From NCBI GenBank assembly GCA_032358255.1, contig JAULBX010004998.1:1-64000 (forward strand): 64,000 nucleotides of DNA. The letters are read 5' to 3'. The notes beneath the pieces were generated by a model. It was not told the DNA's origin, did no database searches, and saw nothing but the letters and a program-made list of their open reading frames with translations. The stretch comes from Heterotrichella gracilis. Its lineage: Eukaryota > Sar > Xanthophyceae > Tribonematales > Xanthonemataceae. This document shows positions 2,037 through 61,746 of the stretch, piece after piece. Within the stretch, counting starts at the first letter, position 1, and the number at the start of each line of letters is the position of its first letter. The translations under genes and the position numbers were made by a program.

Positions 2037-5000
2037 TTACGGCGAGGAAGGCAGCAGCCCCGCACCCACCGCCTCCGCCTCCCCCTTCCCCTCACCCCCC
2101 ACCGCCGCCTTCCCCCCATTGACCACCGGCACCCGCGCGGAATTCCCCAGCCGCTTGTACACCCAAACAATGGTGCCCATCTGGCCGCTGCTCAGGTGCA
2201 GGTTGCCCTCCTCTGCGCGCTTCATTATTACTCCCAGCAGTTTCCCAGGGTGATGCTCCAGGTGGCCGTAGGCGTACACCAGTGCGGTCAGTTCTTCGGC
2301 TCGGAAGGCACCGATGTTCTGCTCGGCGTGGCGCGCAAGGTCGTCCAGCAGGGGGCCTGCGGGGGGTGAAACGCAAGTAAATAGAAGGGGGAAAAAGGAC
2401 CTAGCAGGGGAATTTTATTACTACATAATTGAATTTATTAAATCATTGATATGCAGCCTGTCCAGGCGCCAGTTGGCCAATCGAGATGATCATGCCCAAA
2501 TCTGCACCCTAATCCATAATAAGGAGTTGGCCAGTCCAGTCTCCACTACCGGCAGTCCCCTACCTGGGTGGAAGGACAGCTTGCCATACGCATATGCGAT
2601 GTTGGACACATCTGCAGGGCGGAAGGTGGGTAGCAGGTAGGCGGAGCGATTGGACAGGCTGCGCAGGACCTGAAGGGGGAAAAGGGGGAATGAGCGCATC
2701 AAAGGGGAAAGGGCGGCATGGGTAGAGCATAGGCCTGCAGGGGCTTGTGCCGGGCGTTAGGTGCAGGATCTCAGGCGGCGTGTTTAATGTATGGGGTGGC
2801 ATACATACGGCGCACACCCAGCTCTGGAAAAGGTAATCAAATTACATAGGGCTATTTTCTATTGTCTTATTATCCATGGCTATAGGTGCATCAGGACACA
2901 TACCACACCGCCCACCCCAGCAACAAAAGCAAGCCAAAACCCAACCCACCCACCTTGACCGGGCACTTGCCCATCTTGGCGTACGCCCACAGGACCATGG
3001 CGGTCTGGCGCGCAGTGAACGCGTTCGCGTGGCGCAACACCACATCGGCCATCTCCTCCATGAACCCCTCGTTAGGTAGGTATCCAAAGCGTCCCAGGCT
3101 CCACATCACTATGGCGGTGTCGAGTGCATTGAAGCTGGGTAGCTCGTCCAGGGTGCATGTGGTTGCGGCGTCCAGGAGGACCTCGCTGCGTATGTTGAGC
3201 TTGGCCAGTCCCCACAGCTGCAGGGGTGGGGGGTGAGGTGGGGGTCAGATTGCATACCGTGTTGCTGGCTTCTGGTGGGTAAGACTCCCAGGACAAGGGT
3301 GCTGGGTACAAGGTTTCAAAGCGCAGGGTTTTAGGATTTGTAGGATTTTGTGTGCGCACCTGGTTGCTCAGCTCCAGAGTTCGAGGGTTTCAGGGCGTAG
3401 GGCTTTAGGGTTCTACGTGGGGCATTTAGGGTTGTGCGTGAGCTTTGAGGGGTTTTGGTGCGCACCAGGTTGCTGAGCTCCAGCGGCGACAGCTCCTCCA
3501 CCCGCCTGCTTGACTCCCCTGCCAGCGCCACCAGGAATGCGGTGGAGGTGGCGTAGCGAGGCAGGCGGGCCAGCGCCCATGCAACGTTGGAGAAGTGCTG
3601 CGGGGTGAAGTGCGGGAGCAGCTTCTGCAGTGGGGAGGAGGGTGGAAATTTAGAGTCTAGGGGGCACATAAACGATGTGGTGAGGTGGGAATGGCCACTT
3701 GGAGTATCAAACATTTAACGGGGAGGAAATAAAGAATGAATCTTAATCACGATTGCTGCAAGATAAATGTCAGGACTTTCTTGCACATGAGTATCCCTGC
3801 AGTAGGGTGAAGTAGGGGAGCAGAGGGTTGCACAGAGAGACCAAGGTGAGCGCTGCTGGTTTTTTCCTGCACCCGGGCGTGACGTGGCCCGGCCTTACCG
3901 TTGCGTGGTGCGTGACACTGTCCATGAGGTTTAAGAACTAGGCTAATTGTTAGGAATAGGATTTAGGGATAAGGTTTTCACTGTGGCCCCGCCTTACCGT
4001 TGCGTGGTGCGTGACACTGGCCATGAGGTCTGGGTGCGGGTGGTAGTCAAGCTTGGCCCAGGCCCACAGGGTGTTGCTCACCTGCGAGTGTGCGTGGGGG
4101 GGAAATCAGGGGGTAGGGGTAGGGGATAGACTAGGGACCAGTGGGATGACCGTTGAAGGGTGCACTGATTTGGCCCATGTAATACATGCATTGTCCTCAA
4201 CCGCCGCCCAAGAGCATACGCTTTTTGGGGCCTTGATTAGCACAACCAATCATGCGGCCGTTGTGATGACAGTCAAGCGGGCCGTTGTGATCACAAGCAT
4301 AATGCCTGGTATGATTATGATCATGAGGCCGGTGCGATCACGATCGTGAGGGCGCTGGCCTGTCGTGTGTGGACACAGCCGCTTACCTCCTGCGCCCCAG
4401 AGTTTCAAACCCCAAACCCTAACCAGCTCACCTCCTGCGCCCCAAAGTGCTCAATCTTGTTCTCCAACTCCGCTGCCATTTTGTGCACCAGCTCGTCGTT
4501 GGTCACGCCAACCTTGGCCTGGGCCCACATCACGCCTGGGGACAGGAAACCCTAGCGTTAAACCCTAGCACCAAAACCCTATCGGGAAGCACCAGCTTAA
4601 ACCCTAGCACAAAACTCTCGCGTGCACGCATGAAATCGCGCAAAACCCTAGCTTGTGAAAGCGGGGACCAGATCCTTGTCCCACCCACCAGGAAAGGAAT
4701 AAACTACAACTGCCATTTAAGATCATTATTTTACCCGCAGGTAACCTGCCTGCACTGCTGGAATGCACAGCTACTATCACAGGATCCTTTGATGACAACT
4801 GCTTCACCCACACGCCGTGGCTAGGAGTGGCGGAAATGTGACATCACCCCCACAGGTGCTGTGTTAGAGAACTTTTTACACACGCTGGGCCACAAGCTTT
4901 GTGCAAGACCCACCCCACGCGCACCCACCTACTGTTGACTCTGGCGAGAAGCCCTTGATGTGCTGGATGGCCTGGCGGCCCAGTGCGTTCATGAGATCCA

Positions 5001-8000
5001 TGGGCTCAAACCCTAGGCGCGCAAACCCTACCAGCAGGTTGCTGATGTCCTGCGGCTTGAAGTACATCACCTGCTGCTCGCACTCCTGCAGGCGCAGGGT
5101 TCAAATTTAGGGTTTATGCTTTAGGGTTAAGGCTTAAAGAGCGGCATGTCCAGGGGCTTGAAGTTCATCACCTGCTGCTCGCACTCCTGCAGGTGCAGGG
5201 TAAAGGGTTTAGGTGTAGGGTTTAGGATTTGGAAAGCGGCATGTCCGGGGGCTTGAAGTCCATGGCCTGCTGCTCGCACTCCTGCAGGTTGGCGTGGGGG
5301 AGGAGAAATGAGGATTCATGATTTGCATCCCGTGGATCTGATTGCTGCTCTGGCTTTCTTGCCTGTATGCAAGTATTCCAATAATCCCGTGGGGGCCTGT
5401 CGAGCAGACAAGACTGGCCCAGAAAGCCAGAGTCGGCTCCGTCCCCAAGCAGAACGTACTTGCCACATCTGACCTACCCTGGCAACTTGCCTCAAGCAGG
5501 GGAGTAAGCCCAGTATGCTGAATGTGCACACGGCGTTGCACAGGCCCTGACAACCTGTGCACACGCCTGGTATACATAGCTTATGCAGTCCCAGCATTGT
5601 AAGGTTCATTGGTGGCTATTGCAACCCTTAGCTGGACCAATGCATGCCAACTACACCACGACCCCTCGCAAGTAACCACCATCCACTCTACCACCACCAC
5701 CACCACCACCACCGCCGTCTTTGACCCTAACACCACCACACCCCCCATTTCACCCACCTTGGCCACCGCCTCCAGCAGGGGGGTTGAGCTGTAGCCCAGG
5801 ATGCTGAACGCCCACACGGTGTTAGACAGGCCCTGGGGCGAAAAGTGCTGCAGCTTGTTCCGCATGGCCTTGCCGAGGGCGGGCAGCAGAGGAGCGCGTG
5901 GCGTGTACTCCAGGGCTGGGCAGGGGGAAGGGGTGTGTGAGGTGGTTGTGCGGGGATGGCTTGATCGCATGGGTGCAGGAGGCGCGCATGGTCAGATGTA
6001 ACATTACCCACAGAAACAGTGCAGCCTACCCCACACCTTTGCCGTGACAAGGTAAAAAATTATAAATGGTTACCGTGCGGATGTGTATGTGCTGCAGTGG
6101 CAATGGTTCCATCACATTGCAGCCGATGTGCCAACATGGCAGCCGATGTGCCACACTTTTTTAAATCCATTGCAACTTTACATTAATATGTTCTTCCTTC
6201 ACAGCGGAACCCCACCGCCGCCAACTCAACCCCGCAGTACCGCACCCCCCGGACTAACCCCTCTCCACACCCACCTGCATACGCCCAGGCCAGGTTGGAG
6301 ATGCCCTGCGGGTAGAAGTCGGGCATGCACAGGAGGGACTGCTCAGCGATTGCCTCCAGCAGATCCGCATCCCGGTACTCAAATTTGGCAAATGCCCAGG
6401 CCTGTGGGGCACAGGCCACATTTCAACCCCCCTGCATCGCGACGTCAGCACCGTGCAAAGCGAGTGGTGTGAGTGGGCGAGCACGTAGATTGCTGGTCAA
6501 ATGTAAAGCGCTAGACACACAGATGCAATTGCCTGCCGATGGTGATGTGTGGGGATGGGGCATGGCGCACGTGGGGATTCGTACCAGGTTGGACAGTCCC
6601 TGGGCCTCAAACTCCCCGATGCGCAGCTTCACGCAGGCTGCGATGCTGTCCACCACCTTGCCTGCAGAGAAGCAGCAGGAGGGTCAGCAGGCGGCCGAAT
6701 TTGGTCAATGGCCAGTGGCCAATGACCAACTTTAATTTATGGCCACTTTGGTCAATGGCCACTTTGGCGAACGGTGGTGCAGCAGGTGGCCATGCAGCAA
6801 GCGTTTCTCGTGATAAAAAACATGCAGCACATGCTCATGCAGCCAAATGGGCTACTGTGCATTCCCTGGTGGAAGGGCCTCCAAGACACCAGGCAATCCG
6901 CTTCAGTATTGCATTGTGCCTGTCCCCGCTCACCTGGGTGGTATCCCAGCTTCGCCAGTCCCCAGGTGGCACTGGACAGCTGGTGGTGCTTCATGTTGGG
7001 CAGGTGTTGGAGGCAGCGGTGGGACAGTTTGCCCAGCACAGCATCCCCGGGATGGTACCCAAGCTTGCCAAAGGACCACGCCACAGACGCAAGCTGCGAC
7101 GCCTTGAACCTGGGGTACGGGTAGGTAGGGTTTAGGATTTGGTTTTGGGCCACGTCACAGATGCAAGCTGCGACGCCTTGAACCTGGGGTACGGGTAGGT
7201 AGGGTTTAGGGTTTGGTTTGAGCCATGTCACAGATGCAAGCTGCGACGCCTTGAACCTGGGGTACAGGTAGGTAGGGTTTAGGGTTTGGTTTTGGGCCAC
7301 GTCACAGATGCAAGCTGGGATGCCTTGAACCTGGGGTACAGGTAGGTAGGGTTTAGGGTTTGATTTTGGGCCACGTCGCAGATGCAAGCTGGGATGCCTT
7401 GAACCCGTGGGTGCGGCTGCTGTTTAGGGTTTAGGGTGTTAAGTTTAGGGTTTGCGTGTAAGGCAACGCCACAGATGCCAGCTGCGGCGCCTTGAACCTG
7501 GTAGTGCGGGTGATGAGGGGACAGGGGATGTGCACGGTGGGTGCAGGCATATCAAGAAACGGTGGGTGAAACACACAGACGTGGGCATCTTGTCAGCCCT
7601 GGTTGGCTCCCTGGTTGTGCCTGTCAAAGCATCTTGTAAACCTTGCAAGTGAGATTTATGACCAAAACGTGAGTCCGGTGTGGTGCTGGATGCTGTTGAC
7701 CAGCCCTGCTTGAGCAGGAGCTCCAGCGTGTCCGTGCCAGCCAACAATTCCTCGAGCAGTGCCTGCTTTCACCGCGGAGAGAGGTCGAGCAGCGCCTCGC
7801 GCTCTCGTTGCGGAGAACGTGGCACAGCCTGAGGAGGAAACCCTACAACCTACACCCTACAACACCCACCTGGGCGCGTACTGGTCCACCAGCAGCGTCA
7901 GCTCCTTGAGCACCGGGTCCCTCCTCAGGTCCCCCCGCTCCGCGTATGACAGCTCAGCAGAGTACTTGGCCAAGCCCTTGAGGCTGGTAGACACGTTGGC

Positions 8001-9558
8001 GGCGCTGAAGAAGGCGCCCTGCTCCTGCACAACCTCCTTGATGCGCTGGCAGTTCTGCGTGCGGAACAGGCGGGAGTTTATCAATTACAGGCCTCCCGGC
8101 ACGAAAGCCAGATCAGCAATCAGCCAAGAACGCGCCTGCGCCACCCACTCCTGTCCTGGCATTGCTTGTACCACTTCTATATGTTCCTTTCTGCAAGTCC
8201 TTAATGAAGAGCCGGCAGCCAGAGGTTTATGCGTAGTGAGGACTGCATACACTTGAGCACAGGGTCCCGCCCAGCGTAGACAAAACCCTAAACCCTAAAC
8301 CTACAGCATACACCCACCTGCGCACGGAACGGCCGGAAGTTGATTCGCTGGTTGACGCCCAGTGTGGAAAAAAACCTAAACCCTATACCTACAACCCTAC
8401 ACCCCACCTGCGCCCGGAACAGCCGGAAGTTGATGCGCTGGTTCACCCCCTTGGCGCCCCCTCCAGCGGCGGCACCACTGCTGGCACTAAGGGGGTCTGC
8501 GGCTTCGCTGGTGCTGGCTCCCAGGGAGGTCGTGGCGCGCGCGCCGAACGACTCCATGTCCGATTTTATCAGCTCCAGAAGACCGTCTTCTGGGATTGCT
8601 GCACCGGGCAAGGGGCTAGTGGCGGGGGGTGCGGCGGGTGCGCTGGTGCTGGTGGTGGCTCCCAGGGAGGTTGTTGCGCGCTCCTCAAAGGACTCCATGT
8701 CTGACTTTATGAGATCCAGCAGGCCTTCGTCCTCTGGGGGTGGGGTTGCCGCAGGGTGTGGTGAACAGGGGTGGGCATACGGGGCGGGGCACAAGGCGTG
8801 CAGGGTTTGGTAGCGTTGACAGGGACTTCTGCAGTGTGCGACGTACAGGGGTGGGGCGATGAGGCGAAGGGGACGACACACACAGGGATGTGTAGGTTTG
8901 ATAAGAAGTGCTGCAGTGTGCCATGAACAGGGATGGGCACAACGGGCAAGGGACTTTGCATGCAATGGATGGGTGGCAGTTGTCAGGTAAGCGGGTTGGT
9001 GCAGCGATTGTTGGATAGGAAAGGGCCCTGTTGTTGTGGACAGGGGATGGCAGGTTGGCAGTGCCCCAGGGCTCGCTGGCAAAGGCGTGGTTAAAGCTGC
9101 TCGCTTTCAACATTAAGTGTTTTGAGTTAAGGGTTTGTAGGGTCGGCATGTGCGTATTTGGCACGCAGAGGTTGCCAGGAAGACTCCCTCTGGACATTTG
9201 CTACCCAGTGGCACAACGTGGTGCAAACTGATCACATGACAGACCATGCGCAGTGTCCAAAGCCAACCTGAGAAGACCCACACACACCTGCGCCTGCAAC
9301 CTCCCCGCCGTCAAACGTTTCCCCCCCTGTCAGCGCTGCGGCCTGGAAGGCCGCCACGCGCTTGCGAGCAGACCTTGAGCTGACTCGGCAAGGTGGCTGC
9401 TGCTTGTTTTGGCACCATATGTGACATCTTCCCACACTGCTGGGAGCTATTGCTGCCGCCATGGGACTGATGCCGTCATAAGCTGTGGCTGATGTGCCTG
9501 GATGGCACCGGGACGTGCGCCCCGGCGCTGGTAGAGTGGGTAGGAGTAAAGCCTGCAT
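2037..9558 (-). CDS. Octatricopeptide-repeat (OPR) protein, probably an organelle RNA-binding factor
   Basis: Long many-exon gene. At least twelve helical repeats of OPR type occur, with the core pattern PQ-x-hSNxxWAhAKLGYxP: for example SVAWSFGKLGYHPG (about 7070), ATWGLAKLGYHPGE (6950), FSPQGLSNTVWAFSILGY (5830), DISNLLVGFARLGF (5040), NTLWAWAKLDYHPHPDL (4060), HFSNVAWALARL (3580), MVLWAYAKMGKCP (2980) and LVYAYGHLEHHPG (2270). In algae this family stabilises, processes or activates translation of single chloroplast or mitochondrial mRNAs (Tbc2, Tda1 type). The chosen start at 9558 opens an exon rich in Ala, Ser, Arg and poor in acids, as in an organelle transit peptide. A low-complexity linker with a duplicated LIKSDMESF block follows at 8720-8560. 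No RAP domain is seen before the stop at 2037. Introns carry many exon-edge duplications and telomere-like tracts. The target RNA cannot be predicted; some middle exons (7.5-7.9 kb) are unclear. Confidence 0.8.
3352..4029 (-). repeat. Exon-edge duplications in the OPR gene (two pairs)
   Basis: Pair one: a 26-bp segment around GGTTGCT(C/G)AGCTCCAG at 3352-3377 and 3458-3483, about 106 bp apart, copies an exon/intron edge (reverse-strand ELSNLV). Pair two: about 45 bp at 3885-3930 and 3983-4029 (about 98 bp apart) carry an exon end encoding ASVTHHAT plus its GTAAGG donor. CCCTAAA-like sequence lies between the copies of both pairs. Confidence 0.75.
4384..4447 (-). repeat. Short exon-end duplication in the OPR gene
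   Basis: CACCTCCTGCGCCCCA-type segments at 4384-4404 and 4428-4447 duplicate the end of the exon coding for EHFGAQE with its splice donor. The spacer between them reads CCAAACCCTAACC. Confidence 0.65.
5046..5288 (-). repeat. Three copies of an acceptor-plus-exon-start segment in the OPR gene
   Basis: A segment holding CTTGAAGT...CTGCTGCTCGCACTCCTGCAGG occurs with CTTGAAG at 5056, 5157 and 5252, spacing 101 and 95 bp. On the coding strand it is the 3' splice site and first codons of an OPR exon (CEQQVMYFKPQDI). Only the copy near 5056 runs on into the full exon; the other two are cut off at GGGTTTAGG-like tracts. Confidence 0.8.
5690..5713. repeat. (ACC)n microsatellite
   Basis: Eight uninterrupted ACC triplets in an intron of the OPR gene. 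Confidence 0.85.
7087..7500 (-). repeat. 74-bp tandem array made of an intron 3' end and exon start, 5-6 copies
   Basis: GCCTTGAACC occurs at 7101, 7175, 7248, 7322 and 7396, so the unit is 73-74 bp, with a degenerate sixth copy at 7489. Read on the coding strand each unit holds CCTACC...CCCCAG as a 3' splice site, then the exon opening FKASQLASV, then a CCCTAAACC tract. Only the copy at 7101-7030 continues into the complete OPR repeat (WSFGKLGYHPG). As 74 is not a multiple of three, each acceptor enters a different frame, yet the first five copies stay open in one long reading. Confidence 0.9.
8315..8450 (-). repeat. Exon-end duplication in the OPR gene
   Basis: About 46 bp at 8315-8361 and 8405-8450 (spacing 90 bp) encode NQRINFRLFRAQ and NQRINFRPFRAQ, each followed on the coding strand by a GTGGG donor. 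Telomere-like CCTAAACCCT lies beside the outer copy and between the two. Confidence 0.8.
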
Positions 9559-10622
9559 CCTATTGCTGCATGGCTGTGCTTGTGAGGTCTGTGCTAGCAG
9601 CCGCTGTCACAGTACCGGGTACAGTGACCCCCAAACCAGTGCCCGCCCAGAGGTGTGTGACTGATCCTGCAGGGAAGACACCTCTACTCAAACCATTCTG
9701 TTGCACACAGGGTGCCTGAACTAGATAAGAAACAGATATTGCACAAGCAACAGCAAGGAATAGGTACAACTGGCCATAGCCAGAGCAAGGTGTTAATAGG
9801 TGCAACCTTCACAATATGCATGGTGGGACAGCCGTATTGACTCGCACCAGATGCTGCAAAGCAAGCTCTTGCGTTGTTTTACTCTTCGTTCATACGCTCT
9901 TTGCTACGTGCATCGCGTGGGTTACCTTCCACAGACTTGCTTTCCTCTGACTGCCTTTCAGCCCAACAGCACAGTGTCGCAGCTGTGGCCAACACGTACC
10001 GCAACCGTGGGTTAGTTGCGACTGCTTGACGCAAATATGCTACCTTGCCCTCCCAAGAGTTTAAAACTGTGGAAGAGACACGGCTGGATAACTGTCCCTG
10101 CAACCTATCTCAAAGCTGTGTGTGGATGGTACCTTTCGATGCGTCCAAGACTGCGCGGGACCATAGTTGTCGGAGGTGGCGCGCAAGCAACTTTGAGATG
10201 CGCTGTGCTGCAAGGCGTGCAATATGCCACCGCCCCACACCTGAAGCATATATGCATCGTCGATGCCATCGAAGCACTTTCGCCCACCGTCGCCAGGGTG
10301 GTCTCAAGATAATCGTGGGATTTTTGAAATAGAAGATATTCTTGGAGGAAAAGAAATGGATTTTTATTAACTGCCACATGGCCAGTCGTATAACCTTCAT
10401 GTTCTGGGTCTTTCACTCCATAGACTGGTGTAACGGTTAGAATTAGCAGCCTCAAAGGCGCCACACGTAGGGCAATTTTCTGTGGTCAACTTTGAGCGGA
10501 AGTCAAGCACTGTCCAAAGCGCTGGTAGCCTTTTGCTGAGTGCACTGCAGGCACCATGCGTGAATAGAGAGTCAGAGAGTATAAATACTTCTTGTATCAC
10601 CGACATGCCATCCAGCCGCAGC
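9559..10622. other. Intergenic: OPR promoter side and F-BAR gene 3' flank
   Basis: Several open frames of 70-120 codons occur on both strands, but none has domain likeness, codon-biased composition or splice continuity. I see no supported gene. The left part must contain the OPR promoter; the right part the 3' untranslated region of the F-BAR gene. Confidence 0.5.
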
Positions 10623-13600: not shown

Positions 13601-14025
13601 CTGCCCTTTCGACAACCCGTCCAGCTCGGCAAGCGCTGCCTGGGCCAGCAGCGGGCTCTTGGCCAGGTTGGTGAAGCTGACCTTGGTTTCCTTGGGTGTG
13701 CTGGCCAGCATGGACTTGCGGATGGCGGCACTGGTGGGGCTGTCCACCGAGAGGTCATCCAGGGACAGGGCAGGTGCTGAGGAGTGCGCGGCCCTGAAGG
13801 CCTCGTCAAACTCGTTGCCTGCGCGAGTGGGGTTGCTTGCTCAGTCCATGCACGTAGGTCACAGGTGGGTTGCAGCGCTCAAGCGAGGTGGATTCACCCA
13901 CACTTGTGTGCGGCTGAGTGCGTTCTATGGAAATGTAACTTTGTATGCAAGTGTGAGCTACCTGTCACTGTGTGCAAGTGTCCGTGGTCAGGCGGCCCAG
14001 GTGCCGCATCGTCGTTGTCTGCCAT
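10623..14025 (-). CDS. F-BAR-like coiled-coil protein with C-terminal PH domain
   Basis: Start ATG at 14025 opens MADNDDAAPGPPDHG, then an intron with GTAGCT donor joins to NEFDEAFRAAHSS. A serine-rich stretch (SPTSAAIRKSMLAS) leads into long amphipathic helices over exons at about 13750-13500, 13230-13000, 12560-12410, 12150-11930 and 11540-11350, with signatures like AETAYSRALSTVAKV, QHYQASERQAVVLAFQRLK and TLKGVLNNLLITY, as expected of F-BAR membrane-bending domains. The last exon (about 10940-10623) is a pleckstrin-homology fold: GELQRWDAGAGKWLDNHFVL at its start, KGRKLMFRAGS, and ECCDWAIALREAI as the closing helix with the conserved Trp. Such proteins bind phosphoinositide membranes and shape endocytic tubules. 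The PH call is firm; F-BAR rests on helix pattern and order, so another BAR-like or Arfaptin-like fold is possible. Confidence 0.7.
13235..13380. repeat. About 35-bp imperfect tandem repeat in an intron
   Basis: Four diverged units of the type GCAGCA..AAAGGGTGCGCATG..TGACTG in the intron before the exon starting ELTSTVV. Unlike the echo arrays elsewhere they copy no exon. Confidence 0.7.
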
Positions 14026-15036: not shown

Positions 15037-17037
15037 ATGAAGGCCCAAGTCTTGCATTTGAGACGCAGTGGACAAACGGACAAGACGAAAATCGGCCTTT
15101 TCGTGCTTGGTGGCATCCTGGTTGGAGCAATCTTTGGGTACATCCTGATGGGCACGCTCAACGCAGTGAGTCAGTACAACTTGCCTTGCATGCTCAGAGG
15201 TACTACCAGAACGAGCCTAGAAAACTTTCAGCTTGCTTATCTGGGCTTGATGACTTGCAGTTTTACGAGATCAAGGCAGAGAACCACTATACAGAAGGGG
15301 AACCCAGCGTACCAGGTGTGTGAGGCTACACGCTTATTAAAGTTAAGCTTGGCCCACAAAGTTAATATCCGCCAGGTTTAGCTCCGCCCAATATCCTCAG
15401 GTATTCAGTGAGCAACGAATACACATTTTGCAGCTGCGACCGCCGTTGCTGCTACCACCAAAGCGGTCCAGGCGGTTACAGCAAGCGGTGTTGACTATCC
15501 AAAGAGTGGGCGAACAATTCACACGTACTGTACCAGCAATGGCAGCCCCTACTTGAATTTCCAGACCAGGATAATGTAAGTGCTGCCTCTTTCACACCTC
15601 TCACACGTGCAATAGCTCGTACCCTGGGGTGCAAGTGAGCTTTGCGGCATGCAAAATTTGAGTTGCTTTGTCGCTGTGCACAGGTACGGGACGTACAAGC
15701 TGGCGCAGAAGATGCCAGGTGGTGAGAACATGGTGGCGTTCACGCGCATCCTGCACCGGATGACTCCTGACATCCTCATGGACGAGGTGGGTGCTCAGGC
15801 CAGGCCCTCAATTCCCTTGGGTTATGTCCCTGCGTGTGCTCCACTGGCCACCTGATACCACCACCCTGCTTCCAGGTGCCAAGCTTCCGGGCAAACCCTC
15901 AAACCCCAGCCTGCGACACCTGGTGTGATTTCCCTGTGGCAGACCGCCCAAACGCAGTCAAGCAATTGCTGCTGGCTGCAAAGTCCGACCCTACCCTGAT
16001 CCAAGGCGCCTGGATGCTGATGATAGAAACGGACTATGTGTGGATGAAGCCTGTCCAAGCGCCGCCAGCGGAGGATGCCAGTCAGCTGTCTTATGCCTTT
16101 CCCTTTGGGTACATCCAGCCAACCTACCCCACAGTGGAAGGTGTCATGCGCAAGATGTACCCAGTGGAGAAAGGCCCTTTGACGGACATCCCCAACACTG
16201 GCCCTGCACCCACGTTGATGCGGCCGCACCAGTGGTACCAGGTATGACAAGGCTGTCTTTTCCAAAGCCACTTAACGCACAGCTTGGGCCCCATAGTAAC
16301 CTGTTGGCATGCTGATGACATCCACCAATACAGTTCACGGTTCCTGCAGATTGTCGACGAATGGGAGCGGCTGACACTTCACATAGAGAGTGACCCCGAG
16401 TCCAAGAAGGAATTGGACTGGGTGCGTGAGATGTATGCATTTTCAGTGGCGGCGGCCCTTAAGGGAGTCAAGTTTGACCTGAAACTGCCGCCAGATAACA
16501 AGCTGATCACTCAACCGCCAGCCGACCACGGCCTTGGGAGTGCTGCCATGTTCCACTACACCTGGGGATCCATATACAAGAACCAGAAGGGGGAGGAGAT
16601 ATGGAAGTTTGACAAGAGGTTCTACACAATGGAGACACACCAACTCAAGGCGAGTCCTCTTTGTGTTGTCTTGTAGCATGCCCAGCCGCTGCTTATCTCG
16701 CTGTGTCATACACTGCACGCCATCAACATCCTATGCTATACAGTGGCGTTTAATATGCAGATCCCGCGTGGAATATGTGTAGGTGATTTTGTGTTGATGA
16801 TGGGCTGGATCCATTTTAAACATTAAATTGTGGTGCCCCACCCCGTTCGTGGTCTAATACAATGCTCTGTTTGCACCCTTTCAGGTGCCTCGGTTGGATC
16901 CTCCCCCACCCTTCCAACCAGGCTGGACACTTCAAGATGGTGTCCCAGTCACTGCTGGTCTCAACGAGGAGCTGACACAAATGATCACACAGATGAACCG
17001 AGCAAGCGAGACGCTGCCCACACTTTCTGCAAGATGA
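15037..17037 (+). CDS. Hydroxyproline O-arabinosyltransferase-like Golgi enzyme (HPAT, GT95), paralogue 1
   Basis: Seven exons (15037-15165, 15261-15315, 15434-15575, 15684-15786, 15876-16241, 16350-16649, 16885-17037) total 1248 nt, 415 residues, with no frame conflict. A short basic tail and one membrane helix (IGLFVLGGILVGAIFGYIL) make a type II Golgi protein. The lumenal part has family marks: TYCTSNGSPYLNFQTRIMY, FTRILHR, ADRPNAV, the acidic IETDYVW, AFPFGYIQP, VMRKMYPVEKGP, VREMYAFS and a late FHYTWGS. HPATs add L-arabinose to hydroxyproline on extensin-like wall proteins and secreted peptides. The exon 6 donor is GC (AAG/GCGAGT), making a GC-AG intron. A second copy lies at 25.7 kb. 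The ATG at 15037 was preferred because it sits just upstream of the membrane helix; the shared acceptor is not shown. Confidence 0.88.
16650..16884 (+). other. GC-AG intron in HPAT1
   Basis: The exon ends CAACTCAAG and the intron begins GCGAGT, ending CTTTCAG. The paralogue has AAG/GTGAGG at the same place, which fixes the boundary and shows that only this copy carries the rare GC donor. Confidence 0.8.
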
Positions 17038-17590: not shown

Positions 17591-18594
<1,004 letters not shown>

Positions 18595-21890: not shown

Positions 21891-23121
21891 GCGCGTCAAG
21901 TTGTAAGTGCTGATGGCACTTGACGCACCAGCCACGCTGGCAGCCGGGAGGGGACTGCCCAGCTGAAGGGTGGCGGAATGGGACCACCCTTGCCTTTATA
22001 GGCAACGAGAAGAACTCTCTTATGTTTTGCTTGATTTGGTGTGCGGGGGTGCGGCATACCCACAGTCAATTTGGCCGCATTAGGGGCTTGTGGTCTTTTG
22101 GATCCGCACTTGACGCCACCAGAGCAGTACAAGTTTCACTTGCTTGATTGCCCTGCATACTCTAAACACGGAGCGTGTGCAATTCACCCGTCATACACTC
22201 ACTGGACCTATCTTGGGACAGCGATGTTCAGCAACCCAATGTTGCAACTGTAACATCTTCCTACCCTTTCCTTGTCCCATATCATCATCACATCAGCTGA
22301 AGTTCACATACTGTTTCCCTCATGCCGCACCTGGCCTGGTGCTGCGTGCCTCATGAACGGGCTGTGTGTTTGTTTGCAACCACACTAAGTTTACAGGCGT
22401 GCAAGGTCACAGCACGCACAATTTGCTCGAGATGTTTTGTTGCAGCAGTGGCAATTGGCAAACTCAGCCAAAGCAAGCAAATAATCAACGGTTGATGGCG
22501 ATCACGTGGGCCTCTATCCTGATAATTATTGTCTGAAATGAAGTGACAGGCTTTAGCTCATACAACTGAGTGCCTGAGCGTAAAATATTGCCAACGAGAA
22601 GAGGTGTGCTCGAAGGCTTTGAAAAACAGCAAGTGTATAAACTGATGCTTGCCAAACAGCTCATAGCAGTGTACACATGGGAACAAAATTTGTACCCATA
22701 AACAGCCTGTTGGGCAAACAGACTGTCAACGAGAAGCACCTTGAAAATGTTGATATCAACCCACTTTTCCTTTTTACCCAACCTCAGGCACTGGCAGACC
22801 TTCCTGTGAACAATAAGGTTCTATATACCTACAGTCAGCTATTACTGCCTCGAGACAACCCAATATAATGTGAACAAAACTCAACAAGTACTGTACACTT
22901 GCTACGCTGCTGTGCAGTGCGCAAACGCTCTGCAAAACCACCTACACTGTCAGAAAATCAAGTACTTGCCCCCCAAAAATAACCCCACTATGCTAGGTGC
23001 CTGTTTGCTACTGCAAGTTGATTTTCAGCAGTTGAGCACTTGCAAAAGACACCTTGCTGGCTGGCTGCAACCTCTGTGTCACACCAGTTGTGCTTTGGTG
23101 CACACAGCAAACAGGTGACGT
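21891..23121. other. Convergent 3' region between ATPG and cyclin A
   Basis: About 1.2 kb with no coding signal. The stop of ATPG is followed at once by a near-repeat of its last bases (GTCAAGTTGTAGGCGCGTCAAGTTGTAAG), a 15-bp local duplication. Confidence 0.45.
22249..22253 (+). terminator. Possible poly(A) signal of ATPG
   Basis: TGTAA about 360 nt past the stop codon, in a T/C-rich stretch. It fits chlorophyte usage but is short. Confidence 0.3.
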
Positions 23122-34581: not shown

Positions 34582-35626
34582 CCCAGCTCTCGCCACCCAG
34601 GCTGAAGTGATGCCAATCAAGGTTACCACGTCCCAAACAGCAAGTGCAGATACTTGCAACCCAAGTTGCTATGGCAACACGCGTTGCAAGGGCCTCTTCA
34701 CAAGCAGCTTTCAAGATCCAAGGATCCCAGATCAGCAGTGCCAGCCCACAGTTGCCACGGGCGGTGCTTTATCGTTGTCGGGTGTGGGGCGGATGGCACA
34801 CAGCAAAAAGAGCATTGGGAGTTGGGAGCAACGAGTTGTGTGGGTCTGTATTCTCTTTTTTGGCACGACTTGAACGTCACTCCCCAAAAACAAGTGAACG
34901 GGGAAAGGGGAAAACCAATTTATTTAAATTCAAAGCATTTTGCTATTCAGGAATGACGAATGTTTTCCATCGTTCGAAAATGACTTACAAATGTGTGCCA
35001 CAACGCTGTGCTAGCAGCCGCTGGCTCTCCCCACCCTGCAGACCCTAATTGTTTCAAATGCTGCTGAGTCAGACCAACCAATTGCAACCTGCCAAATGTG
35101 CAACCCGTGTGACACCCCTCCCAGTGCCTGCACACGCCGCCGCAGGATAGATCATGATTCCCCACACTCCCGTCCTCCGCCCTAGCAGCTCCACACCACA
35201 CCCGCCGGCCACTTCATTGCACCATGGCCATGGCCTGCCTGCCTCCTCGCCACCCCACCGCAAGCAAGGTACCCCTTAGGGCAGCTGTCCCTGGTCCCCT
35301 GCGCCAGGTGGCGCGTGATGGCAGGCCACTGGCTCCGTTTTGCCACGCTATCGCCCATGCGCTGTGCACCCTTGCAGGCTTCGCCGGGCCACGCATCCCT
35401 GGTGGGGTGACAGGCCCCGCATGGGTGCCCCAGGACTGTCCACCACACAGTGCCGTGCTGGATGAAAAATCTAGCATCAAATCATGAGTGATTGCAGCCT
35501 GCTGCAGTGTAAAGGCACCAAGCCGCCACCCATACTGGCGGCTGTGAGCAAAGAGCCTCAAGGGCGTTGCAGGCGCTCTCATGCTGCTCTGGAAACCAGT
35601 CAAGCACCGGTGCACTGAGTGGCTTC
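34582..35626. other. Intergenic between kelch-ACBP and FPG (both minus)
   Basis: About 1 kb: ACBP promoter on the left, FPG 3' flank on the right. Open frames to about 110 codons show no recognisable domain. Confidence 0.45.
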
Positions 35627-43069: not shown

Positions 43070-46000
43070 TCATCTGGACCAGGGCCATCTGACCTTCTGC
43101 TTGAACGTCAGCAGCTCCACCCCTGGCGCTGAAGAGCTCTCCTGGCCAGCCATGAGGGCGGTGGAGGCAGCGCTTGCCTGCACGCCATTGGCCACTCCCC
43201 TGCCATCCCCATCCTCCCCTGCCCCCGCCCCACCCTTGCTGCTCCCCCCTGGGCCACCCTCGCTACCTGCGGGTGGCTGCTGCTGCTGCTGCTGCTGCTG
43301 AGATGTCTGCGGGAGGGTGCTCCGATCCCCCTTGACCGACAACAACTCCTGGATTTCAATCAGCGTCCTCCCCTTGGTCTCGGGCACGTTCATTGCCACA
43401 TAGATCACCCCATATGCAGCCACCGAGGCAAAGACGATGAAGGAGAAGGGTCCCAGCCAGGAGTGGAGGGACAGGAAGATGATGTTGGCCACCGCGCCGG
43501 TGAGGAAGAGCGTGGCGGTGGCGGCTGACGCGGCGGGCGACTTGACGCTCATGCTGAAGATCTCTGACACCAGGACCCAGAAGATGCCCGCCCAGGAGGC
43601 GCTGCAGAGGGGTGCGCAAACAGGGTGAGTGGCTGTGTGAGGGGTTGGATGAGGGGGAGAGTGCGCTTGTGGCAAGCCCTCTTGGGGCACGTATTTTACT
43701 GTGCCCTGCAATGCACACCACCACCCCCAAGCTCACCTGAAGCAGGGTATAATGAGGCAGAGGCACACCACCCTGCAGCATGCATGCATCTGCACCTGCA
43801 ATGCTAAACCTAACCCTAAATCCCAAACACCAACCCCTCCCCGCTCACCTGAAGCAGAGTATGAAGAGGCACAGGCACACAACCACCATTGTCGGGCTGT
43901 GGTAGGCGCTTGCCACCGCCAGCAGTCCCATGAACAGGGCCATGCCTGCGCCGCCCAGCATCAGCAGCGGGCGCCGCCCCACCGTATCCACAGTGAAAAC
44001 GCTGATCATGATGCCGACAAACTGCAAGCACAGGAGTGGGTTGTGTGAGTAGATTGGTCAGGCAAACTGCTCAGGTGAACGCCGTGCCGCCGCAGGGGTG
44101 AAGGTTGTGCGGCTGATTATAGTGTAGGCAAAATGCTGGTGTGGGTCTGGGCGTGTGCAAAGGTTGATCATGATGCACCACTGAGTCCACAGTGAATACG
44201 CTGGCCATGATGCCAACAAACTGGAGCCGCAGACAAGGGTTGAAGGGTGTCAATCTGATGGTGAAGTATGTGGGCACACATGTACATGCATGAGCGGATT
44301 GGTCGCGATGCAAAGGCAACGAGACCATAGCAGCAATTGGCACAAAGGTATGCAGCTGGCAACCATGACGCCACTCCCATCAAGCAGCGCCAAGCCAAGC
44401 AGCGACACCAGCCATGCACCCCAGCTTCCCCCAATCTACCTTGCTGGCCCCGATGACCGACGTCCACAGCGCGGCATGCGAGTGGCTCTGCATGCCCGCC
44501 TCCTCGAGCAGCGTAGGGGCATAGTTCACGGCAGCGGTGGAGGCCGAGCCCTGGTCCACGATGGCCAGCACCACAGCCATCTGGAACGCGCGGCGCTCGG
44601 GCCCCTGGGACACGATGTAAATGTCCAGCATCATGTCGCACAGCGTGCGCCAAAAGCTGGGGCGGGGCTCGGGGGGGTTGGTGAGCGCTGATGGGGATGC
44701 TGGGGCGGAGTCGGGCGCCGCGGGGGCGGTGGACACCTCAAGCCCACTGCTGGCGCTGCTTTCTAGGAATGGAGAGGGGGTTGGGTCCCCGCCGTTGAAC
44801 CCCTCGGGGGTGTCGCTGGCCACTACTTGCGCAGGGGCGGATGGCGAGCCTGGGTCCTGCTGTGGCGCGGCGCTGTAGTCCGCGCCATTCCCCGCATGGT
44901 GGGCGCTGCTGTCGAGGTCGCCAGCTGAGTCCAGGACCGTCGAATGCTCCTGTTTGACCGGCAGCGTCGCCACGGCATCCCCATTTTTGCCGCGCGTGTC
45001 CCCCTTGCCAACCCCCTGGGAGGCAGGGCCTGCATCCGAGGTGGTGGCCGGCGGCGGGTGGAGGCGCTCTGTGTCTGACTCAGCGCCCTCGTGCTCATGC
45101 AGCACATGCCATTGCTTCTTCACCCACCCGCTGCCGCGCTGCAGGTGCACATGCATGCGAGTCAGTAATCATGCTAGGGAATGGTAACCTGGCCATGGTG
45201 CCCAGCACCACATGGCACATGCGCATCAGCACATTGGTCTGATGCCGTATCACATGCCCAGCAGCAGTGTGTGTATGTGCCTGTGCCTGTGCCCGTTCGT
45301 GCATGGGTGAGGGTGGAGGCATTGGGGTGTGGATGCGGCATGTTGTTCAAAAGTAATTTTGGTGGAGTAGTTGTGCTCTGGGGTTTGCTCAGCTATGTTG
45401 TGCGCATGAGGTTGGTGCAATCCGCACCTTGATCGCCCGCTGCAGGCCGCTGGATATGCTTGCTTTTCCATTTAATCTTCAGTGTTTACTTCAGGTTAGG
45501 TGCGTGATTTCTATTTCCACACGAACCTTACTACCGCCTGGTTATGCTTGTTTTTCCTTTAATTCTTAGTGCGTATTTTAGGTTAAATGGTTGATTTCTC
45601 TATTTTGCCCGCACCTTGATCGCCCGCTGCGTGCCGCTGGCCATGGCCTCTCGGTACTCCCTGCGCCGCTCCCGCACCGCGTGCTTGTCCTTCTCCACGC
45701 TGCTCCACAGCTCAAGCAGCTCCGCCTCAACCTCGGGGGTGGAGTTGCGGGTGCCCAGCGGCAGGGTCTCGCGGGTGTACAGGCGGTGGATGACTGCCAG
45801 GGCCTCGTCCAGGCGGGAGTTGACCACCAGCCAGCGGGGGGACTCGGGGATGAACCAGGATGCCACTGTAAGGGGGAATGATAAAAATATGGGTTGTGCC
45901 TTCGTACAACTTTGCACATTTTGCGGGAGGGCAAGCACAATTCTTTGCGGAAAGTGTTAGCAATTTGTTCTGTGGTGATGGGCTTTAGGGACTTCTGTCC

Positions 46001-56595: not shown

Positions 56596-59500
56596 CTACA
56601 TCACGGTGCCATCGGCAATCTCGGCGTTGCGCAGCACCGTCACGATCCCCGAGCGGATGTAGAAGCCCTCGTCCTCGCGGTTGGCCTCGTCGATGCCCTC
56701 CTTGTTCACGATGGTGCAGTTCTTGCCGATGCGCGCGTTCTTGTCCACAATCACGTTCTGGATGAGGGAGTTGGCGCCAATGCCGATGGGCACCCGGCCG
56801 GCGGCAAACAGCGTCGCCCGCTGGTCGTCGCTCTCGTAGTAGTCGGCCCCCATGATCATGGTGTCCTGCGCGGGGATGCAAGTAATTAGTGATTATAATG
56901 GTCATGGTGCCCTGCCCGGGATGCATGCGTCAGCTCGTGTGCGCACTGGCCATGGTACAGCAGGTGGCGGGTCGCATTCAATTTGCCACCTAGCCATGAT
57001 CAGGAAATTATCACCCTGATCAGCAATCTCACTGAACAGCGTGAATTTTACCACTAGACGCCTGGTTCATATGCATGCACCAGTACTGTCACCTCCAATC
57101 CGGCGTTTCAGCGGTGCACTTGTTTGCACCGAGAAACCGTCGCCTGGCAAGAACCCAATGCGGCCTGCTGATTGAAATTGTGCCCTGTGTAAATTAACCC
57201 CACGGTATATGCACTTACCCGACCTTATGATGCACTATAATGCCATATTTTGCATGATGCCGTCACCCATGCCGCAGACGTACCCGATTGGGCTTGTGGG
57301 TTTACTCCATGGTATATCTCCCACCATAGACGCACAATAATGACCCATTTCTGGCATCAAAGCACACGTACCCTGATTGTGCAGCCGCTGCCGATGCGCG
57401 ACCTGAGGCCGATGATGGCATTCTCCACTGTGCACGACTCCAGGAAGGCCCCGTGGCTGATGATGGCATCGGTGATCTTGCTGTCCACGATCTTGGCAGG
57501 GGGCAGGAAGCGGGGGGAGGTGTAGATGGGGGTGGCGGGGTCGTAAAACTGGAAGCGGGGTGGCTGCAGCAGGCAGGAAAACGCAGCGTGGTCAGGTTTC
57601 ACTGCTGTCCTAGCTTTTCATATGCATGCTGGTGCATGGTACCTAGTCATTTGTGCTGTGGTAGCTGTGCTCACACAGAGAGTTATGTGCACTGCTCCAA
57701 AAACATTACATAGACATTGCTAGTGGTCACCAACCATGAGATTTCCAGCTGATTTCCATGCACATTCAAGGTTGGATCGCAAGACAAGGAGGCATCTGCC
57801 AGGTGACCACGCGCAGTCCCTGCTGTAATAGCGCCAGGTAATCCTAAACCCTAAACACCCTACACCCTAAACCCCTACAACAGTACCTGCTGTGTGAGCG
57901 CCAGGTTTGCCTCGAAGAATGACTTGATGGTCCCAATGTCCTCCCAGTAGTCGTTGAACAGGTAGCCCATCACCCTGCAGCAAGCAAAAAATAGCCATCA
58001 GATCAACAGCCAGATTGGAGATTAAATGGCGGGGCTGAAGTACGGAAGTAGCACGCACACGCATCCGATACATGGATGGTCATTGTGTCAAACTGGTTAG
58101 GACAACCATGGAGCTGAGGTTGTAGATGACAGGAGGTGATTCGGTCCATGTGGCATTGATACATAGCAGACGCAAACCAAGCAATTTCACTGCTAGTACT
58201 TGTGATGCACAATATACTCCCCTGCACAGCCTGCTCAAGAGACCGCAGGCATGCAAATGCATCCAGCGCCTTGCAATTGAGTGACCCAGCATGCGGGTTG
58301 CAGCTGCGCGCTCTGGCCCCGCAATTGAGTGAGGCACAGCATGATTATTAGCGTACTTGTGGTTCTCTGCCGCCAGTGGGATGATTTCCCCTCCAAAGTC
58401 GTTTGCGTCTGGGTATGTGTCCTTCAGCAGCTCCACCAGCAGCGACTTCTTGAACACGTAGATGCCCATGGAGGCGATGAAGGGCTTGGTCTCAGCCTCC
58501 TCGGCGGACAGGCCTGGAGCAAGGTGTAGGGTTTAAAATGCATGCCTGGATTAGGGTCTACGGTTAAGGGTGGCGGCGATGAAGGGCTTGGTCTCAACTC
58601 CTCGACGGGCAGGCCTGGAGTAGGGTGTAGGGTTTAGGATGCAGTCTTGGAGTAGGGTGTAGGGTGCAGGAGTAGGACTCAACCTTGGCGCCAAGATCGC
58701 ACACCCCAGGGTTCATTTTTGGATTTTTGTGTTTGTACTTGGACTGCTTGGCACCACATGTACAACATATACTGCTAATTTTGGCTGTTTTGCTGTTCTG
58801 CATGAAACCAACCGTGGGTGCTGATTTGACACAGGAGGTAGCCGTTGGCAAGGCGCATTCACGCACGCAACTTGTTTGATGTGGCCATAGGCACAGCGGT
58901 GCATGCCAGAGCAATTGGCTGACATGACGGTTGGGCCACGACGGTTGGGCCATCCAAACATATACATGACTCATGTAACATGAACTATGAAGTATGGCCC
59001 ATGAAACTGCTTGTTGCGTAAAATGTACTCTGCATTAAAAGTTTAGGATAGAACTGCCTGGGCCGATCATGCGTGGCTGTCAGCTGACCTGCTTGTGTTG
59101 CTATCTAACCAAATGCCTTACCCAGGATTGTTGTGTCCACCTTCATGGCCTCCAGTGCATCACCCTTGGGCTTCTCAGCAAAGTCCTGCAGAACGAATGG
59201 GTTAAGGTTTCTCAGCAAATGTCGTGCAGACTAAATGCGATCCATGGTAAGGCGCCGTTCTCATACACATCTTCGAGTGCAAAAACATGCACACCAGCAG
59301 CTTAGCCAGCGTCTCCTTGAGCGCACACAGCAGCCCAGCAACAGCAGCAGGATGCCCAGTGCTCTGCAGGATTAGGATTTCAGATACAGATTTTAGGGTA
59401 CTATAAACGTCGGTTGCTGCCACAGCAGGCGAACACCTTGATGCGGCCCTCGCCGTCGATCTTCATCAGCCCGAAGTCCGACGCGCGCTCAAAGTCCACT

Positions 59501-61746
59501 GGCAGGCAGCCGATGGTGATGTCTGCGCCTGTGGCCCTGTGGTGCTCCACAAACTTGGCGTAGTCCATGCGGTACCTGGGAGCAGCAAGCCAGCGCGGCT
59601 CAAAATTTGGCGGGAATGCAAGTAACCGACCAGCGCGGCTCTAAAATGTGGTGAGTGGGCCAGCAAATGGCCAGCCCACATCCTAAACCCTTAGCACTGT
59701 GGTGCTCCACACACTTGGCATAGTTCATGCGGTACTTGCACACAGCAGGCCAGCGCGGGTCAGCGTTGGCGGGAATGTATACAACTTTCCCGTCAATGGG
59801 AGTGTACCCACGCAATCTGTACACTTCCATTACAGAAGCTACTAAAGGTAAGTGACCAGCGCGGCTCAAAATGCTACGAGTGGGCCAGCGCACGGCCGCT
59901 CGCCCACTCTGCATAAAGGGTTGGTCCTGTGCGGCAGGGGTTGCGCACTGCATTGTTAGGTGCTGCTGGGAAGGGCATGCGCCCTTTCCTCAATGGTCCA
60001 CTACTTCCACTACTTTCACTACCATTACGCACCCCAACCCTCATGCTTGCCTGCCTGCACACTCGAGCTTTGCGCGCTGCATCGTCGGGTGCAGCTGCGC
60101 AGATCTGGATGGTACAGATGCACGCGAGCATGAGGTTGGGAGGTACGTACTGTTAGGGGAAGTAGAGGACAGGGGGGCCACTGAACAAAGGGCATCAGCG
60201 CACACCCCGGTGTGCATGTTCTCACCCCACATGCCCTTCCCTTTGCTAACTCCCCTTCTTCAATTAGCGCGCATGTGCAAGGACAGGCTCGTGTGTTTTT
60301 GTATGCGTGGGGGTACGTACAAGTGGTCGCCGGAGAGGATGACAATGTCCTCTATGCTGCGGTTCTTGATGTCCTCAAACAGCCACGCGTATTGCCTCAC
60401 AGCATCTGCTGTACCCTGGAACCACTCCTTGTCGGTGGGTGTCTGGGTCGCAGCCAGGACCTGGCACAAACACCACACAGGAGGGTATTGAGGCCCAGTG
60501 GTGGGAACCCCTGTGGCATGTGATGTGCAACCACGCCCCACGTGAAAGCACAAACACCGGGATTGGGCCCCAACTGGAAGTGCTATGGATGCTCAGGATC
60601 CACCTCAGCACCTTCAACCAGTTGCACCCCTAATCCTCTGCATGCTTTGGTTCCCTCAAGAAATGCAGCCCGCACATTGCTGTTTAAGGCTTAGGGTTTG
60701 GGGTTAAGGAACAGCACACATGCCTTTAAGCAGACCTGCATGCCACCCCTAGCTATAGCTAGCTAGCTGCCCGCACCTCGACAAACCCATCCCCAAACTT
60801 CACCCCGCTGCCAAAGTTGTATGTCCTGGCCAAGTGCCGGTTGAGCGAGGTGGAGTTGAACTGCGTGAGGATGTAGATCTTGTTGATGCCGCTGTTGATG
60901 CAGTTGCTCATGGGCACGTCAATCAGGCGGTAGGCGCCACCGATTGGCACAGCGGGCTTGGCGCGCTGCTTGGTGAGTGGGTACAACCGGGTGCCGGCAC
61001 CGCCTCCCAGGATGACAGCTGCAGAATTAAAGCACGTTTGGACTTGTAAACAGCTGACTCAAGTGTGGGGAAGGATGGCTAGGATGTGTGCCCACCCAAT
61101 GCATGGACATACATACTCGTTTTGCAAGCCAACAACACACCCACGGATGCATTGCCATGGACTAAAGCTGTAGAAGCTGTGATCTGGTAGGTATTGATTG
61201 GGTTGCTGATCGCCCAGGTGGCCAAAAGGCGTGCACTGCCGTTTGCTGCCGAGAGCTTCCCACCTGCTGCTGAGGTGGCGATGTTCTTCACGTTTGCTGA
61301 AGCAGGGGTTGTCTTCTCGACAACTGCTTGCACCTGCAGGCTCTGGCTGGACCTGAAGGAAACAGCAACCGGGTTGTAACCCGCGCTAGGAGTGTTGGGT
61401 ATTGGGCACAAGGCTCAATGTGACGGTAGCATGCATATCCCTTCAGGATGCAGAAGAAGGAACGGCGACGGAACTAGCAGGCCCTGAGATCCTGTTCTAC
61501 AACACCCCGCCACAACTGCTGATACAGGAGTTAAGCAGGGTGATCTGCAGGTCTTCACATCCGCACACAGGCTAGGAGGGCATACCTCTTTGGTGCGTTT
61601 GTGCGGGGCATGCCAACCTTGGCGCCAGCCATGGACCTGCCATATCCGGGCAGCTTTGGCGCACTGCTGCCGAAGCAACGTGTGGAAGACATCCTTGGAG
61701 CTACGCCAGCTGCCTGGTCGGCAGCGAGCTGGAATGTGGCGCTCAT
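56596..61746 (-). CDS. ADP-glucose pyrophosphorylase large subunit, plastidial
   Basis: Makes ADP-glucose from glucose-1-phosphate and ATP, the committed starch step; the large subunit tunes allostery. Exon 1 (61746-61586) is a Ser/Ala/Gly/Arg-rich transit peptide. Exon 2 (61352-61264) joins at [18 protein letters not shown], the nucleotide loop, and the frame closes. Then [114 protein letters not shown], a left-handed beta-helix ([18 protein letters not shown]), and [20 protein letters not shown] near the stop. INSGINK and [17 protein letters not shown] mark the large rather than small subunit. Introns show two clear exon echoes and several GGGTTTAGG tracts. Confidence 0.93.
57845..57881. 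repeat. Telomere-like heptad tract
   Basis: CCTAAACCCTAAACACCCTACACCCTAAACCCC in an AGPL intron, the plant-type telomere unit in diverged form. Confidence 0.8.
58471..58633 (-). repeat. Exon-start echo in AGPL
   Basis: GGCGATGAAGGGCTTGGTCTCA and flanks, 63 bp in all, at 58471-58533 and 58571-58633 (100 bp apart). On the coding strand this is the acceptor and exon opening [13 protein letters not shown]; the intronic copy carries small changes and is bounded by GGTGTAGGGTTTAGG. Confidence 0.85.
59537..59763 (-). repeat. Exon-start echo in AGPL before the [11 protein letters not shown] exon
   Basis: CTGTGGTGCTCCACA(A/C)ACTTGGC at 59537 and 59697 (160 bp apart). The intronic copy would read [13 protein letters not shown] against [13 protein letters not shown] in the true exon, so the catalytic Asp region is altered. 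A third family of short repeats (CCAGCGCGGCTCAAAA at 59592, 59629, 59857) runs through the same intron. Confidence 0.85.

Follow-up and report, generated by a model that had tools for sequence, protein, structure and literature searches.

How introns grow and where they come from is an old open question; for Chlamydomonas and its relatives, whose introns are unusually long, the driving mechanism is left unknown in the portion of the source consulted (PMC8226300). A 64-kb stretch of the genome of Heterotrichella gracilis (contig JAULBX010004998.1, positions 1 to 64,000; hereafter the window; guanine-cytosine (GC) content approximately 55%) raises this question in a concrete form, as several of its introns contain displaced copies of the adjacent exon edge, splice site included, here termed echoes. 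The gene models used to describe them consist of predictions from a self-trained gene finder (107 exons), curated by hand, after the echoes had been seen, into 16 models with 76 introns. Splice-site usage is throughout read from these models, and all counts refer to this one window.

When 70 nt from each of the 152 exon edges of the 76 introns were compared with the adjacent intron, 18 edges matched their own intron with a score of at least 24, where approximately 1.8 were expected. Per 152 edges, the controls gave 1 match with reverse-complemented exons, 1.85 with introns of other genes and 1.7 with dinucleotide-shuffled introns; at a score of at least 30, 13 edges matched, versus 0, 0.0 and 0.1, respectively. 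The matched exon segments at the lower threshold ended exactly at the exon edge in 13 cases and within 2-5 bases of it in the other 5. The ACBP-kelch pair at 32976/33036, which includes just 11 exon bases, is missing from this list and is plain in the tract-flank test and the repeat census presented below. Echoes in these introns are real. Since the copies of a pair differ by 4-30%, they do not appear to be simple assembly duplicates. A first-pass annotation of the window, made from the sequence alone, had listed echo pairs in seven genes, OPR, HPAT2, ACBP-kelch, FPG, PC4, sugar porter and AGPase large subunit (AGPL). Its pairs were located within a few bases of the positions given for them or inside the aligned copies, the seven genes were confirmed, and the comparison with shuffled introns, run within the window, bore the echoes out. 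While its echoes and its local duplication stood, that annotation overlooked four further pairs (OPR 4381/4426, OPR 5463/5743, AGPL 57814/57881 and the HPAT2 stop codon 28611/28718), as well as the telomere-repeat spacer and the scarcity of this repeat outside introns.

The common layout consists of an exon edge with its splice site, a telomere-repeat insert, and the exon edge with its splice site again, which is the layout of an insertion with a target duplication of 23-69 bp. In length the copies fit fill-in tandem duplications, in which adjacent copies of up to approximately 100 bp are joined end to end, but here 21-154 bp of insert lie between them. Across 16 edges, exon bases average 33 and intron bases 13 in the duplicated stretch, the exonic share being the larger in 14; decay of the intron part on both copies may explain this partly. 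The repeat is TTTAGGG, which we take to be the telomere unit of this organism because green plants have telomeres of this type; together with the gene content, it would suggest a green alga. Within the 14 telomere-bearing inserts, the best local stretch is 76-94% identical to perfect (TTTAGGG)n, and the copies themselves are 76-96% identical. When units of 5-8 bp were compared on the pooled inserts, TTTAGGG accounted for the most 6-mers (132), narrowly above TTTTAGGG (119), the pool being the 14 of 19 inserts judged telomere-bearing, with five telomere-poor-looking ones left out.

Rotations of TTTAGGG also head the list of over-represented 7-mers in the window (51 vs 4.7 expected), and they are concentrated in introns. 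TTTAGGG words number 223 in 21.8 kb of introns (10.2/kb), 7 in 18.8 kb of exons (0.37/kb) and 21 in the remaining 23.4 kb (0.9/kb), a class without annotated untranslated regions (UTRs) that may include unannotated exons or introns; the runner-up among the 20 heptamer units that match TTTAGGG in base composition has 62 words in introns. At least one telomere word occurs in 27 of the 76 introns. Tracts of at least three words are found 27 times in introns, once in an exon and twice elsewhere, and 15 intron tracts remain when the OPR gene is left out. Intron tracts tend to sit close to splice sites: 14 of the 27 are no more than 35 bp away from one (5.1 expected, P = 1e-4). Counted by intron, the nearest tract falls inside this distance in 13 of the 17 tract-bearing introns (expected 4.9), a value that none of 20,000 random placements reached. 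Every intron tract is of a single strand type, 12 G-rich in the sense strand and 15 C-rich, and this purity, with both senses present, argues for an origin at the DNA level. The sequence AAACCCTA occurs at 40 sites, 38 of them intronic and 2 exonic. As a separate observation, telomere-like words also occur in the OPR exon at 5008-5030, where CTAGGGTTT encodes the Leu-Gly-Phe of the repeat motif; this could be chance or a domesticated insert.

Tracts and echoes occur in the same introns: 12 introns carry both, 5 a tract alone, 5 an echo alone and 54 neither (P = 8e-7), and without OPR the corresponding numbers are 7, 4, 4 and 49 (P = 1e-4). The 17 echo introns counted here are those of the echo test plus ACBP 32748, one of them being weak (AGPL 59186). 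This association bears on the idea that the telomere motifs are selected cis-elements, such as telo boxes or splicing elements, and the echoes independent tandem duplications. Telo boxes are known in plants (PMC3022908), and the nearness of tracts to splice sites in 13 of 17 introns would suit such a role. However, tract and echo coincide, the two orientations are about equally frequent (12 vs 15), and AAACCCTA reaches 1,739/Mb in introns with none in the unannotated part. In Arabidopsis, according to the portion of PMC3022908 consulted, telo boxes are enriched in 5' UTRs, with no such excess in introns (151/Mb vs 155/Mb genome-wide). We therefore consider selected cis-elements a very improbable source of the pattern.

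Instead, the echoes could be scars of imprecisely repaired DNA breaks, a reading to which we give not quite an even chance. Two nicks approximately 25-70 nt apart on opposite strands would produce a staggered double-strand break, and fill-in of both overhangs would duplicate the sequence lying between these nicks. For many events, an end would first gain TTTAGGG repeats in one orientation or the other, added by telomerase or captured from telomeric DNA, and end joining would then leave a copy, telomere repeats and a second copy; the order of these events is one that we infer. Where a splice site lies in the duplicated stretch, the outer exon copy would, on the gene models, still be spliced, the insert and the spare copy would become intron, and the gene would survive. 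Repeated events would add copies beside the exon and lengthen the intron, and a new intron may result where the insertion falls within an exon. The telomere-repeat insert found between many copies points to break repair over plain slippage.

The flanks of the tracts agree with this layout. Direct repeats with a score of at least 30 flank 17 of the 30 tracts, at 11 distinct exon edges (five of the 17 belong to the OPR 7073 array and are not independent), and inverted flanks never score above 18. Only 2.0% of 2,725 random intron positions are so flanked, positions unmatched for exon nearness, so that part of the contrast comes from tracts and echoes both lying near exons. This limit weighs against break repair, as do several further observations. 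Thirteen of the 30 tracts lack a flanking repeat of score 30. The telomere fit covers 42-100% of the insert (lowest 22 of 52 bases, OPR 3885), which means that telomere repeat fills some inserts completely and others in part. The spacers of FPG, PC4 40603, sugar porter 43976 and the HPAT2 stop contain no telomere 6-mer, and that of sugar porter 45421 has a single one; with several echoes thus devoid of a tract, the insert is not obligatory. Finally, in some arrays the tract itself is partly duplicated, like ordinary minisatellite growth.

This last feature leads to the main rival, in which the tracts are older, lie near splice sites and, being G-rich and unstable, undergo slippage or unequal exchange that duplicates tract and exon edge together. 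Its best cases are the arrays whose repeated unit contains the tract (7076-7405, with a 74-bp unit in 4.5 copies, and 8268-8450, with a 90-bp unit), together with tracts without a detected echo at 35 bp or less from a splice site (4547, 27397, 39889 and 63444). In contrast, ACBP 32976-33066, OPR 4381-4448 and AGPL 57814-57906 each have one tract between the copies and none outside, and minisatellite growth leaves both the origin of the tracts and their position near splice sites without account. We judge it unlikely, while regarding it as the competitor to be taken most seriously.

Where the events lie speaks both for break repair and against it. A census of local direct repeats across the whole window (within 300 bp, score of at least 34, low complexity removed) returned 18 repeats, 16 of them linking an exon end with the non-coding DNA beside it, one within an exon and one within an intron; random placement would give 14% edge-spanning repeats. 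Non-coding bases on the exon side are included in 15 of the 16, FPG stopping 5 short, and one repeat spans a stop codon. Without the complexity filter there are 20 repeats (17 exon-end, 1 exon, 1 intron and 1 non-coding outside curated introns). The additional two are the echo at 43715/43827 in the sugar porter gene and a non-coding, GC-rich pair at 8751/8831. The latter is a diverged direct repeat beside an OPR exon (8751-8855 / 8831-8937, 69%). At a score of at least 26, with the filter, 19 repeats run from exon to non-coding DNA, 4 from exon to exon and 4 from intron to intron, and 2 are of other kinds, versus means of 0, 0, 0.2 and 0 in four shuffles.

Such a bias might arise from detection and selection alone if events were uniform in the genome. 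Selection preserves the exon-edge copy, so pairs there would stay recognisable longer, and the exon-exon repeats at the lower threshold are shifted by multiples of three in 4 of 4 cases, as selection would leave (a shift of 114 may represent ordinary OPR protein repeats). Nevertheless, simulation of uniform events with the observed ages, and with faster decay when both copies are non-coding, yielded approximately 66 non-coding pairs at a score of at least 34, against 1 observed (2 without the filter). The tract counts, which do not depend on pair detection, are similarly uneven: introns have 27, and the other 23 kb of non-coding DNA has 2. Thus, neither splice-site survival nor detection explains the edge bias in the window. 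Uniform events are accordingly quite improbable, and the bias requires either that exons are targeted or that retention is selective. The same numbers are awkward for break repair, which leaves the preference for exon edges over intron interiors and intergenic DNA without explanation. Exon-specific methylation damage does not supply one: this candidate was rejected, CpG depletion being weaker in exons (observed/expected 0.64) than in introns (0.47).

Many echoes retain a spare splice site. Among 22 echo splice sites, a hand-listed set rather than every echo, 17 keep their GT or AG (7 of 8 donors and 10 of 14 acceptors). This retention counts in favour of break repair, and would also be expected if the echoes were functional alternative exon ends; however, of 17 extensions of an exon to an echo site, only 2 are in frame and free of stops, and we attach next to no weight to that possibility. 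A duplication at the HPAT2 stop codon leaves a spare stop region by the same logic, without telomere repeats.

Regarding the consequences for introns, the first-pass annotation had proposed that duplication across a splice junction lengthens introns and leaves a spare splice site, and this is upheld: echo introns have a median length of 418 bp, versus 243 bp for the others (P = 2e-5). Its argument from diverged copies to a process repeated over time likewise holds, as array similarity to the exon drops with distance in PC4 (0.91, 0.78), OPR 5045 (0.92, 0.90) and OPR 7073 (0.94, 0.91, 0.88, 0.85), the one exception being the last copy of OPR 7073 (0.91, with 32 of 34 bases covered). The two HPAT paralogues, at 15037-16649 (HPAT1) and 25914-28664 (HPAT2), encode proteins that are 68% identical and have three common intron positions, at which the second paralogue has the longer introns. 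The intron at one codon and phase measures 108 bp in HPAT1 and 478 bp in HPAT2 (27380-27857). The HPAT2 echo matches the HPAT2 exon at 36 of 47 positions and the HPAT1 exon at 26 of 47; being closer to the former, it probably postdates the gene duplication.

One intron may itself have arisen in this way. In OPR intron 8055-8407, the final 27 bases (8055-8081) are a copy of the upstream exon's end, with 22 of 27 positions matching and the copy finishing precisely at the 3' splice site; the intron starts with GTGGGGTGTAGGGTTGTAGG, which places its donor at the start of telomere-like DNA. It is alone among the 76 introns in having at least 8 of its 10 end bases like the upstream exon end. From its sequence, it looks like a candidate intron gain, with the pattern expected from telomere insertion and target duplication. 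The idea that introns generally form at AGGT proto-splice sites was rejected: intron starts were compared with the start of exon 2 and intron ends with the end of exon 1, and both comparisons were near background on average, with one intron standing out. An insertion anatomy with target-site duplication and a candidate gain are also what a mobile element with telomere-like ends, introner-like or otherwise, would leave. Yet, with telomere words masked, the introns of the window have no non-telomeric sequence in common, unlike introner elements, which share one sequence across many introns; the 6 self-matches more than 1.5 kb apart comprise 5 cases of exon paralogy and one 41-bp repeat, and the duplicated stretch varies from 23 to 69 bp. 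A mobile element is hence extremely improbable. The 41-bp repeat is interspersed (85% identity), with one copy in an OPR intron (7588-7628) and one in non-coding DNA of the PC4 region (41432-41472).

A wider proposal, which we offer as doubtful, is that in this lineage a repair route acting at exons or their junctions with introns seals breaks by adding telomere repeats and duplicating the junction; it would be a main driver of the lengthening of introns and now and then give rise to new ones, and part of the intron DNA would be decayed telomere repeat. The telomere repeat labels the insert and the duplicated edge gives each event an approximate age, which could make intron growth countable genome-wide and datable against relatives. 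The exon-edge bias, beyond simple survival, would point to sites of break formation or of scar persistence.

The first-pass statement that no named system of this kind was known is over-stated, given published relatives (PMC4974935, PMC8355091, PMC2246262; these and the sources below are cited for the portions consulted). In rodents and primates, short interstitial telomeric sequences are inserted at double-strand breaks, sometimes with target-site duplication (PMC2246262). They resemble the inserts described here as short telomeric repeats at an internal site; there, however, target duplication is found in a minority of loci (6 of 130 in rodents and 4 of 25 in primates), whereas here 17 of 30 tracts are flanked and lie near splice sites. 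In human and mouse cells, fill-in of overhangs by CST/Pol alpha-primase followed by end joining produces small tandem duplications (PMC8355091), which are likewise local, shorter than 100 bp and derived from filled-in complementary overhangs; the consulted text describes neither a telomeric insert nor an exon-edge preference. In potato, one RdRp gene is reported to have gained an intron by a tandem duplication that crosses an intron-exon boundary, with splice signals inherited as here (PMC4974935), and five probable cases of gain by tandem duplication are reported for Drosophila (PMC2891723). No telomeric insert is described in the consulted parts of these two papers, and the window differs in its many recurrent events, which mostly lengthen introns. 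Plant telo boxes are also TTTAGGG units inside the genome, for which telomerase acting at free 3' ends linked to transcription has been proposed (PMC3022908); they are short 5' UTR motifs with no flanking duplications described in the consulted text, unlike the largely intronic AAACCCTA sites reported here. Each ingredient is therefore published. Their combination, telomere-repeat inserts between duplicated exon edges, was not found among the matches listed from the open-access literature, as far as titles and abstract openings reveal.

The individual echoes are listed in the following table. Curation of the underlying models shifted one boundary (5680 to 5758), separated joined genes and dropped small or cross-gene predicted exons, e.g. 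5172-5186, 17811-17869, 22446-22484, 35197-35457 and 35536-35691, as well as 40149-40193, 40704-40768, 41101-41202, 59295-59363, 61586-61666 and all those from 9288 to 10249. The curated models of the seven echo-bearing genes contain no internal stops. A Pfam scan of hand-trimmed proteins from 10 of the 16 models placed nine above the curated cut-off and one, a PH domain, just below it, providing the names OPR/FAST-type repeat protein (FAST_1), HPAT, FPG, ACBP-kelch, PC4/DEK_C, sugar transporter, GATA finger, AGPase-like nucleotidyl transferase and reductase.

Table. Echo loci of the window, with positions, strand and arrangement of the copies.
Feature	Positions	Strand	Details
OPR donor-side echo	3352-3483	-	copies 3352-3377 and 3458-3483; exon edge 3466; insert 3378-3457 (80 bp), degenerate telomere repeat
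OPR donor-side echo	3884-4029	-	copies 3884-3930 and 3983-4029, 96% identical; spacer weakly TTTAGGG-like
OPR donor-side echo	4381-4448	-	23-bp copies 4381-4403 and 4426-4448; 22-bp telomere insert
OPR acceptor-side array	5045-5289	-	exon start with acceptor three times, two telomere inserts in between
OPR old donor-side echo of exon 5758-5915	5463-5835	-	73% identity; no telomere tract of at least three words
OPR acceptor-side array	7073-7515	-	exon edge and five copies, telomere tracts in between
OPR intron 8055-8407 with exon edge	8055-8450	-	donor-side echo 8313-8360/8403-8450 with telomere insert; third copy 8055-8081
HPAT2 acceptor-side echo	27668-27904	+	copies 27668-27730/27842-27904, 76%; few telomere-like words between; echo acceptor lost
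HPAT2 stop-codon duplication	28611-28775	+	copies 28611-28668/28718-28775, 72%; no telomere words
ACBP-kelch echo, the cleanest	32976-33066	-	31-bp copies 32976-33006 and 33036-33066, the latter spanning the donor; 29-bp telomere-repeat insert
FPG acceptor-side echo	36774-36928	-	87%; aligned copy ends 5 bases before exon edge; no telomere tract; echo acceptor lost
PC4 acceptor-side array	40196-40474	+	exon start three times, with telomere tracts; identity 0.91, then 0.78 with distance
PC4 donor-side echo	40603-40861	+	92%; no telomere tract
Sugar porter donor-side echo	43715-43884	-	58-bp copies; CCTAACCCTAAA-like tract in spacer
Sugar porter acceptor-side echo	43976-44242	-	no telomere tract
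Sugar porter donor-side echo	45421-45640	-	94%; no telomere tract
AGPL donor-side echo	57814-57906	-	26-bp copies, 41-bp telomere insert; echo GT lost
AGPL acceptor-side echo	58469-58665	-	copies 58469-58519/58571-58620; telomere tracts 58527-58557 and 58621-58665
AGPL acceptor-side echo	59534-59777	-	copies 59534-59602/59694-59762, the second preceded by a short telomere tract (59682-59691); AG of the echo lost

A fourth PC4 copy near 40149, suspected by eye, was rejected as unsupported (7 matching bases). Within an OPR exon, an in-frame duplication of 141 bases (47 codons) relates 8507-8594 to 8648-8738 at 80% identity. Other words over-represented in the whole window are GCATGCA (91 vs 39 expected) and ATGCATG (74 vs 26 expected), and no Rfam families or tRNAs were detected in its 64 kb.

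Searches for related sequence gave little. HPAT and AGPL protein scans of viral and prokaryote contigs found no relative, and a plasmid search with one exon returned no match. Scanning viral contigs for the telomere string located 37 loci, with two short telomere-tract DNA matches to the window; none of the 37 was matched by the 16 model proteins (tblastn, 1e-4), and the tract flank score there never exceeded 26. In one of these viral contigs (L005), several reading frames carry Asn-Pro-Lys-Thr-Met just before the likely start, and its telomere-like words may represent a leader motif instead of telomere DNA.

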